Source: Polyangiaceae bacterium (GTDB lineage Bacteria > Myxococcota_A > Polyangia > Polyangiales > Polyangiaceae). Taken from it: 42,378 nt of DNA. Under the pieces are notes generated by a model. The model was not told where the DNA came from and did no database searches. It worked only from the letters and a program-made list of their open reading frames with translations. The translations under genes were made by a program, and so were the position numbers. This document shows, in pieces, positions 10,972 to 38,905 of this stretch. Position 1 is the first letter of the stretch; every line of letters starts with the position of its first letter. The stretch is taken from positions 1 through 42,378 of the forward strand of contig JAKLKA010000054.1 of NCBI GenBank assembly GCA_023150915.1, in the 5' to 3' direction.

Positions 10972-11700
10972 TCACTTCCCGAGCAGGGTCATCAGCTGAG
11001 TCAGGCCCTCTTCCACGCTCGACGGCTTGCTGCCGTCGTAGCTGCCGAAGCCCTTCCACACCACCTTCATGGTCTTCAGATCGATGACGTAGGTCCACTC
11101 GCGACTCACCAGCTGATCCAGCGTCTGGTCGTCTTTGGGTTTGACCACGGACACGTGCAAGTCTTCGGCCTTGATCCACGAGAGCAGATCGCCCGAGTGC
11201 AGGATCTCGACCACCAGGCCGCCGGCCGCGATGGCTGCCTTGCCCTTCTGCTGACTCCCGCCCAAGACCTGGGCGGCCTTCTTGCAGCCGGGTCAACCCT
11301 GTAAGGCTATGTGGATCAGGCCGTACGACTTGCCGCTCTTGCGCATGTCGTTGCTCGAGTAATCGATGTACGGCAGCGTGTCCGACGACGCGGCCGCGTC
11401 CAGGTTCACGTAGCCTTCCCACGCCAGGTTGGCGAGGGTGTCCCCCACCGCGTTGCCGTAGGGGCCGGCTGGGTACGGACCGAAATCCACCGGGCCATCC
11501 GAGCCCGCATCGATCGCGCCGCCGGCACCGCCGGTGGCCGCACCGCCGGCTGCCGTGCCGCCCGCGCTGGTGCCGCCAGTCTGCGCGATGCCGCCGCTCC
11601 CGCCCGCTGCCCCGCCCGAGCTGTCGTCCGAGCCGCAGGCCGCGAGCCCGACAGCAAGCATCAGGGTGAGCGAGACGCCGCGCAAAGTCCGAGCGGTCAT
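10972..11700 (-). CDS. Predicted selenoprotein: thioredoxin-like lipoprotein with U-P-G-C motif
   Basis: Read through one in-frame TGA at 11293-11295, this is a 242-residue protein. The ATG at 11700 overlaps the preceding stop (ATGA). Residues 1-22 are a lipoprotein signal (VGLAAC), 23-70 a Gly/Ala/Ser linker, and then PYGNAVGDTLANLAWEGYV, the lead-in of redoxin/TlpA-like proteins. The first core strand SYGLIHIA is followed by LQG-Sec136-PGC139-KKAA, exactly where thioredoxin-fold proteins carry C-x-x-C. After the TGA the fold continues (GGLVVEIL, EDLHVSVV, WTYVIDLKTMKVVWKGFG). A SECIS-like hairpin lies 17-35 bases downstream. Seen: the TGA, frame continuity, hairpin. Inferred: Sec insertion and thiol/selenol redox activity outside the inner membrane. 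Alternative: a nonsense mutation. Confidence 0.85.
11258..11276 (-). promoter_or_regulatory. Predicted bacterial SECIS element for Sec136
   Basis: On the minus strand, CCGCCC pairs perfectly with GGGCGG around the loop AGGUCUU. An extra A-U pair would leave GGUCU. The loop starts 23 bases after the UGA, with G at its second position, inside the known range for bacterial SECIS (loop about 16-37 bases from UGA). The E. coli fdhF SECIS has a nearly identical AGGUCU loop, which is contacted by SelB. The hairpin lies inside the coding region, as bacterial SECIS elements do. Confidence 0.85.
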
Positions 11701-37348: not shown

Positions 37349-38905
37349 TCAGTGCCGGTGCGGCTCGGGCTTGTCGAGCAGCTTCCCGAGCTCGCGCTCC
37401 AGCGCCTCGAGGCTGGTGGCCGTCGCGTGCCGCTTGCCCGTGCGATCGAAGATCCAGAGCTGCGGCAGGCTGCTCACGCCCTTCAGGTGTTGCTCTGCCA
37501 CGGGTGAGTCGAAGTCTGGCACCTCGACCCGGCGCACGGCCAGATCGGCGTGCTGGACCGCCAGCTGCTTCAGCCGCGCATCGATGTGCTTGCACGAGTG
37601 ACACCAGTCCGCCCAGAAGTCGATCACCGTCACCTTGCGCGCCGCCAGCACCCGGCCGAGATCGAAGCTCTCGCCCCCCCGGGCAGCGTCCGCAACGTCG
37701 CCCTTGCCGGGCTTTTTGGCCGAATCGTGGGCATCGCCGTGCTCGCCGTGGTCGCCGTGCTCGCCGTGCTCGCCGTGCTCGCCGTGCTCGCCGTGCTCGC
37801 CGTGCTCGCCGTGCTCGCCGTGCTTGCCGGGCTTGCCGTGCTCGCCGTGCTTGCCGTGGTCGTGGTCGTCCTCGCCGCCAGCACCGTGATCGTGGTCGTC
37901 CTCGCCGCCAGCACCGTGATCGTGGTCTTCGTCCTCGCCGTCGCCGCCGCCGAACGACACGCTCAGCGTTCCGTAGACCGAGTAGGTCTCGCTCAGCTGC
38001 TGGCCGTTCACGTCGGTGTAGAGCGGCACACGCCCACCGATGCCGAACGCCACTTTCTCGCTCGCCCGCACGCTGGCCGAGCCGGTCGCAAACACCACGC
38101 GGCCGCCCGAGTTGACCACGCGCCCCTCCTCTTGCTCGTCGGACTGGGTGCGCACCTGAAGCAGCCCACCGGCGCCGAGCACCAGCCACGACGTGGGCAC
38201 CACCAGCGCATCGAGCCCGGCCAGGTACGTTCCGCCCATGGTCACGCCGGACTCGCTTGCGCCGAACGGCTCGCGCACCGACGCGCTGGGTGACACGCCG
38301 AAGTGGCGCGATGCGAACTGCGTGAGCCGCAGCTCGGCGCTGCCGCTGTACGCGCCGAAGCCGATGGCCAGGATGTTGGGCGGCACGCTGCCGCCTTCGT
38401 GGCCCAGCGTGCCTTGCCGCCCGGTGGGAAGCCCGAGCCCAGCCCGCAGGGTCAGGCTGGGCTGGTACCCGCCTGCCCCCCACAGCGCCGCAAAATCGTA
38501 GCTTGCGCCCAGCTCCAGATCGCCGAAACCCGAGAGCCGCCGGGCGGGCTCACCCTGCCCCGGCTCGACCGTGATGGTGCCGGCGGGCAGCGCCAGATCC
38601 GCCGCGAGACCCGCGCCGAAATAGTGGCGCAGCGAGAGCTGCGTGACGAACGCATCCAGCTCGGCGGTGTCGCCGTCCACCACGGCGCTGCCGCGGTACT
38701 CGTCCAGGAACCGCGAGTACGCCAGCGACAGCGCGAGCTGCGTCAGGCCCGAGGGCAGCGCCTGCCGCGCGCCGAGCTGCAAGTTGAGAGCGGACCCCCC
38801 GACCGGGAGGTTCGGATTCACTCAAGCAGTTCAGGTCGCGAACGCCGGCGACCACACCCCGAGGGACGCGATCCCCGCTGCGAAAGCCAACAAGCGCCGT
38901 TTCAC
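37349..38905 (-). CDS. Predicted double-Sec (U-T-A-U) beta-barrel/His-rich/thioredoxin fusion selenoprotein
   Basis: Read from the GTG at 38905 through two in-frame TGAs (38831-38833, 38822-38824), this is 518 residues. Residues 1-23 are a textbook signal peptide ([20 protein letters not shown] then AFA). Mature: T-Sec25-T-A-Sec28-VNPNLPVGG, where related exported proteins would be expected to have C-x-x-C. Then a beta-barrel-like domain ([41 protein letters not shown]), an Asp/His-rich linker with HGEHGEHG repeats (about 320-390) and a C-terminal thioredoxin fold with [10 protein letters not shown] (Cys435, Cys438), resembling DsbD-gamma. Starting after the second TGA (GTG at 38821) would leave a barrel protein without a signal peptide. 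A hairpin in SECIS position follows. Alternatives: two nonsense mutations or a misassembled start. Confidence 0.8.
37739..37855 (-). repeat. 9-base degenerate tandem repeat coding Gly-Glu-His runs
   Basis: Thirteen 9-base units; on the plus strand the main form is GTGCTCGCC, with GTGGTCGCC, GTGCTTGCC and GGGCTTGCC variants. They encode the HGEHGEHGD-type linker, a likely divalent-metal-binding region (Zn, Ni or Cu) between the barrel and thioredoxin domains. Confidence 0.9.
38794..38811 (-). promoter_or_regulatory. Predicted bacterial SECIS shared by two UGA codons
   Basis: Minus strand ACCUCCC pairs with GGGGGGU (one U-G pair) around the tetraloop GGUC. The loop begins 18 bases after the second UGA and 27 after the first, so both lie within the accepted distance. 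A G is in each of the first two loop positions. Two more pairs are possible outside after one mismatch. Confidence 0.75.

Follow-up and report, generated by a model that had tools for sequence, protein, structure and literature searches.

Outer-membrane channels of the COG4313/PF13557 type, represented by Pput2725 (4RL8) and FapF, are 12-stranded β-barrels in which a further segment precedes the first strand. In 4RL8 the N-terminal ~14 residues enter the lumen and nearly close the channel, and hydrophobic molecules have been proposed as the cargo of COG4313 channels (PMC4493636). Selenocysteine (Sec, U) has been recorded in other outer-membrane barrels, namely the GSU2204 MtrB/PioB type (NF041027) and a TonB-dependent receptor with the motif FCYXU (NF049945), with a single Sec in each. 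It is also known from heavy-metal transport, as UxxU or Sec forms of MerP-like metal-binding proteins (NF041115) and of MerT-like proteins (NF045683, MerT/CopZ) (PMC13188914), while a UxxU motif with two Sec residues is found in Prx-like selenoproteins (PMC13188914, PMC2398784). An inventory of 119 prokaryotic selenoprotein families, dated May 2026, holds three UxxU families, none of them an outer-membrane barrel (PMC13188914).

The gene described here lies in a window (the whole stretch of DNA analysed) of 42,378 nucleotides from a Polyangiaceae bacterium, and differs from each of these systems. It shares with the COG4313/PF13557 channels the 12-stranded barrel, a similar length and the segment before the first strand; but identity between them and the window family is only about 10%, a Sec or CxxC N-terminus is undescribed among them, and the C-terminal thioredoxin domain or adjacent HMA-thioredoxin gene of the window family is new. 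NF041115 and NF045683 resemble it in placing UxxU or Sec in heavy-metal transport, with related operon neighbours, but these are periplasmic HMA or inner-membrane proteins, whereas the window family is one of predicted outer-membrane barrels, in which NCBIfam and Pfam searches found no HMA match. The Prx-like proteins carry UxxU within a thioredoxin fold; in the window protein it precedes the barrel (residues 25-28), well outside a thioredoxin domain that has a plain CHSC. NF041027 and NF049945 are other families with other motifs, and their profiles do not match the window family. The family was not found in NCBIfam 20.0 (June 2026) and is missing from the 119-family inventory of May 2026 (PMC13188914), although there is a slight possibility of earlier mention in the Haft papers behind part of it, whose families the inventory includes; a search of the literature on myxobacterial selenoproteins and on the NPNLP motif gave nothing relevant. 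The UxxU barrel is a new selenoprotein family, phylum-wide, whose genes standard annotation would truncate at, or begin after, the first dozens of codons. Sec exceeds Cys in it by about ten to one, and the Sec pair would lie at the beginning of an outer-membrane channel protein.

The gene and its product

The first-pass annotation had proposed a GTG start at 38905 on the minus strand, a Sec-type signal peptide, and then T-TGA-T-A-TGA-V-N-P leading into an open frame, all of which are present in the sequence. Read from 38905, the frame runs GTG AAA CGG ... GCG ACC TGA ACT GCT TGA GTG AAT CCG AAC CTC CCG GTC GGG GGG TCC and, these two TGAs aside, is open through to the terminal TGA. With TGA taken as Sec, the product has 518 amino acids, comprising in order the signal peptide, U25-T-A-U28-V-NPNLPVGG, a 12-stranded β-barrel, a His/Gly-rich linker and a thioredoxin domain (Table 1). 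The Gly-Glu-His repeats of the linker (37706-37942, minus strand) give a weak collagen-like match; similar repeats are present in further ORFs from related genomes, many of them in non-homologues.

Table 1. Features of the UxxU barrel gene in the window
Feature	Position	Strand	Basis
Whole selenoprotein gene (predicted)	37349..38905	-	GTG 38905, TGA stop 37351-37349; sequence and homologues
Sec-type signal peptide, residues 1-24	38834..38905	-	Sequence; predicted, with a similar signal peptide before UxxU in homologues
First predicted Sec UGA codon, U25	38831..38833	-	TGA in 62/68 distinct members, Cys in 6
Second predicted Sec UGA codon, U28	38822..38824	-	TGA in 65/68 distinct members, Cys in 3
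NPNLPVGG motif, whose codons form the SECIS hairpin	38795..38818	-	VGG/GGG/AGG missing from every Cys-only form
Putative bSECIS hairpin for both UGAs, 7-bp stem, GGUC loop	38794..38811	-	Folding, published limits, covariation
Predicted 12-stranded outer-membrane β-barrel, about residues 53-320	37946..38749	-	AlphaFold; Foldseek/VIA: COG4313 channel 4RL8, FapF
His/Gly-rich linker, (GEH)n repeats	37706..37942	-	Sequence; disordered in AlphaFold model
C-terminal thioredoxin domain	37376..37699	-	PF00085 profile; high-pLDDT fold
Thioredoxin active site CHSC (WCHSC)	37592..37603	-	Sequence

Conservation of the UGA codons and exchange with Cys

In a protein search covering 59 related genomes the gene turned up, with both TGAs, in two congeners at identities of 89 and 78%, and more distantly in G058 (45%), G008 (43%) and G009 (35%). 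At the DNA level the pattern TGA-x-x-TGA-x-NPNLP gave 31 matches, spread over 30 of the phylum's 379 genomes, and the reversed pattern none, so the pattern is not a product of chance; one match (L079), only 12 codons long, was attributed to chance and rejected as a family member. With Cys at the second site the corresponding pattern gave three matches, all CxxC. A pattern allowing Sec or Cys located 59 loci in 84,980 species genomes, nearly all in Myxococcota, with rare occurrences in Planctomycetota, Acidobacteriota and Zixibacteria. The 68 distinct homologues comprise 62 UxxU, three CxxU and three CxxC forms, those with both TGAs reaching down to about 20% identity, and later searches added three further CxxC forms. 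The in-frame UGA is therefore retained across homologues and exchanged in some of them for Cys: the C-x-x-C-x-NPNLP homologues for which the first-pass annotation had suggested looking do exist, and the CAGC/CPGC and CAGU forms occupy exactly the UxxU columns. Cultured isolates are among the carriers (Polyangium and Paraliomyxa, with Pyxidicoccus and Myxococcus carrying CAGU), which rules out assembly error as the source of the TGAs.

Paralogous barrels from one family of the class (L183-L187) have a single Cys (ATCSNPGLPVGAAAS) at the UxxU site, and sometimes stand beside a UxxU copy in one genome. Class counts based on the barrel profile A3 are lower bounds, since this profile missed the divergent subfamily to which the window gene itself belongs. 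A record titled as a Klebsiella pneumoniae MAG (L096) holds a myxobacterial-type locus of barrel and partner; the title probably reflects a mistake in binning or naming.

A candidate SECIS hairpin shared by both UGA codons

The hairpin had been positioned exactly in the first-pass annotation: A38811-C38805 pairs with G38800-T38794 around the loop GGUC at 38804-38801. The spacing of 18 and 27 bases given there was one too many: measured to the unpaired run before the apical loop, the distance is 17 nt for the second TGA and 26 nt for the first. The predicted structure, with seven base pairs and an energy of -14.9 kcal/mol (computed over the 48 nt that follow the second TGA), lies within every published bSECIS limit, for loop, stem, spacing and energy, with respect to both UGAs (PMC13188914). 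SECIS prediction thus agrees with the hairpin for both codons, and the proposal that one element serves the two is further upheld by compensatory changes in its stem. No SECIS family of Rfam was matched in the window, which carries little weight given how divergent such elements are in bacteria.

A hairpin directly after NPNL can be folded in nearly all Sec forms. Among 45 aligned members of the PVG[GK] type, 95.9% of cells in the 7-bp stem are paired, against 41-58% when the partner strand is slid by 1-3 columns, and 30 stem cells show double changes, against 0-1 in the slid alignments. The central pair, which varies most, is formed by the third bases of the Leu codon and of a Gly codon, both synonymous positions; it is CG in 19, GC in 18 and UA in seven members, hence paired in 44 of 47, where shuffling gives a mean of 17. 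Codon choice within the hairpin is similarly narrow: Pro is CCG in 64 of 65 cases, against 176 of 341 elsewhere in the genes, and Val is GTC in 46 of 47, against 202 of 472 elsewhere. The CxxU forms, which have the second UGA only, keep the hairpin; it is lost in all Cys-only forms, where MVR, TAR, TSR, SAR or VTR replaces VGG. Given this synonymous covariation, codon bias and loss in Cys forms, the conservation of VGG looks like a constraint on the RNA rather than on the protein. The family is a natural setting in which to test double Sec insertion directed by a single SECIS.

Sec machinery and the origin of the Cys forms

The genome to which the window belongs encodes tRNA-Sec (70.3 bits) and SelB (281.6 bits), both on the same contig and no more than 1.2 kb apart. 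A clear SelB match was obtained in 44 of 48 genomes with Sec forms and in one of six with Cys-only forms (Fisher p 2e-4, on counts that are phylogenetically non-independent). The four Sec-form genomes lacking such a match are G391 and G480, which are incomplete assemblies, G394, which has a SelB fragment at a contig end, and G163. Downstream of the UxxU gene of G009, in the same orientation, are selA (420 bits) and selB (276 bits). A maximum-likelihood tree from which the motif was left out places the Cys forms within the Sec forms and implies at least two changes, as expected if Sec has been lost repeatedly.

The hidden double-TGA selenoprotein postulated by the first-pass annotation has thus gained the support of conservation, of Cys forms at the same site and of the SECIS element, and on this comparative evidence both TGAs are almost certainly read as Sec, making the gene that of a UxxU selenoprotein.

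Fold of the product

The AlphaFold model of the window protein has a mean pLDDT of 79, with barrel and thioredoxin domain confidently predicted, and a Polyangium member gives a better barrel (pLDDT 88.7). The nearest solved fold is the COG4313 channel 4RL8 (Z 25.1 over 249 residues, 2.5 A), in agreement with Foldseek, and the second is FapF (Z 23.0); the modelled architecture is that of the COG4313/PF13557 channels, a 12-stranded barrel plus an N-terminal segment. The PF13557 profile matched 12 of 50 family members at E<0.01 but not the window protein, and no family was found for the N-terminal part in NCBIfam or Pfam searches. The thioredoxin domain matches PF00085 over residues 419-492, which include WCHSC, with 39.6 bits against a cut-off of 23.5. 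From these models the product is very probably an outer-membrane barrel. The UxxU segment is of low confidence in the models and lies upstream of the region aligned to solved folds; by analogy with 4RL8, whose N-terminal segment enters the lumen from the periplasmic side, the selenol pair is probably situated in the channel pore or at its inner mouth.

Thioredoxin partners and metal context

In 30 of 62 loci a thioredoxin-domain gene lies directly upstream of the barrel gene on the same strand, often overlapping it. Its product, of about 150-250 residues, has a WCxxC thioredoxin domain preceded in most cases by an HMA domain with CxxC, or in Myxococcaceae/Archangiaceae by a Cys/His-rich domain; the profiles matched are thioredoxin and HMA (metal-binding domains of copper ATPases, MerP). 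At 17 of the 62 loci, the window included, thioredoxin is instead fused to the barrel, and fusion and neighbour never occur at one locus (0/62). This exclusivity argues strongly that thioredoxin and barrel cooperate, and thioredoxin is likely to be a functional partner of the barrel. The Cys/His-rich domain that substitutes for HMA in Myxococcaceae and Archangiaceae partners is unnamed, and reads CxHxVPxxxC...DWCxEHxVPESQCxxCHPDL in alignment A6 (L139:6508-7170, minus strand). In another partner (L095:4564-5271, minus strand) the HMA motif itself contains Sec, as SUNNCG, so that both proteins of this pair probably use selenium in these motifs.

A mer-type regulator together with a mer transporter is found at two loci only, and the window gene is not among them: in the L052 operon the barrel gene comes after MerR, a MerC-like protein and two HMA genes, and in that of L143 after MerR, a MerTP fusion and the HMA-Trx gene. 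A third locus (L126) has a MerR-family regulator of ambiguous metal. No metal gene was found among the genes adjacent to the window gene, and a plasmid search with a Polyangium member as query gave no match. HMA domains carry copper too, and a cupredoxin domain occurs in one family member, which leaves room for copper or another metal. Neighbours encoding an aldehyde dehydrogenase, kinase, MFS protein or helicase, each at a single locus or a few, were taken as unrelated.

Proposed function and alternative readings

The explanation that best accommodates these findings, a doubly Sec-containing barrel that acts as a soft-metal channel and is reduced by thioredoxin, appears probable as a whole, while for soft-metal handling by the barrel, considered separately, the balance is even. 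Selenols have a higher affinity than thiols for Hg(II) and Cu(I). SelB and Sec-tRNA would decode both UGAs via the one GGUC hairpin, and the exported barrel would have a mature N-terminus beginning Sec-x-x-Sec-x-Asn-Pro-Asn-Leu-Pro, with UxxU on the periplasmic side. There the selenol pair may bind a soft heavy metal, with Hg(II) favoured, on its way across or into the periplasm; thioredoxin, fused or as the HMA-thioredoxin neighbour, would maintain the selenols in reduced form, and the metal would pass to the HMA or His-rich part. That mercury is the specific metal is rather doubtful. Tentatively, the barrel might serve mercury or a comparable soft metal as a gate of its own in the outer membrane, in which a UxxU clamp in the lumen captures the ion and passes it to the HMA-thioredoxin partner. 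We know of no dedicated outer-membrane channel for mer-type systems; such a gate would supply their outer-membrane step, and in its synthesis a single SECIS would direct the insertion of two Sec residues whose codons are nine bases apart. The family offers a way into selenium-based metal handling at the myxobacterial cell surface.

The main rival to this metal-handling role is a purely redox one, in which UxxU would be a selenenyl/diselenide oxidoreductase centre at the outer membrane, reduced by thioredoxin, with peroxides, disulfides or oxidised envelope proteins rather than a metal as substrates. Most selenoproteins are considered to be redox proteins (PMC13188914), 47 of 62 loci have thioredoxin fused to the barrel or next to it, and one upstream gene (L113) is DsbD-like by sequence; but the usual partner also has an HMA metal-binding or Cys/His-rich domain, two members lie within mer operons, and a soluble redox reaction would be an unexpected task for a barrel channel, so that a redox-only centre, while possible, seems unlikely.

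Much weaker is the proposal that the TGAs are true stops and that translation starts at the internal GTG 38821, the upstream signal-peptide stretch being decayed or unrelated. The ORF 38821-37349 is open and is the one that a gene finder would call, but the signal peptide and both TGAs are conserved together in dozens of genomes, the hairpin shows synonymous covariation, the Cys forms read straight through, and the barrel would have no route of export if it lacked a signal peptide. Initiation at 38821, which the first-pass annotation had named as an outcome fatal to its reading, was therefore rejected as highly improbable on grounds of conservation, Cys equivalence and covariation. The same grounds dispose of a Trp or Gly code for TGA and of sequencing error, least credible of all, which the open frame alone would favour: TGA is also the stop codon of this gene, Cys and neither Trp nor Gly stands at both sites in homologues, the genome has tRNA-Sec and SelB, and dozens of independent assemblies carry the same codons.

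A second candidate selenoprotein in the window

A lipoprotein-like protein encoded at 10975-11700 on the minus strand contains an in-frame TGA at 11295-11293, within ...ALQG-U-PGC-KKA, and its product matched no Pfam or NCBIfam family. Matches in G009 and G019 are without the TGA; those in G001, G002, G022, G041, G043 and G050 (30-90% identity) each have one in-frame TGA, and the gene is likely to encode another selenoprotein.
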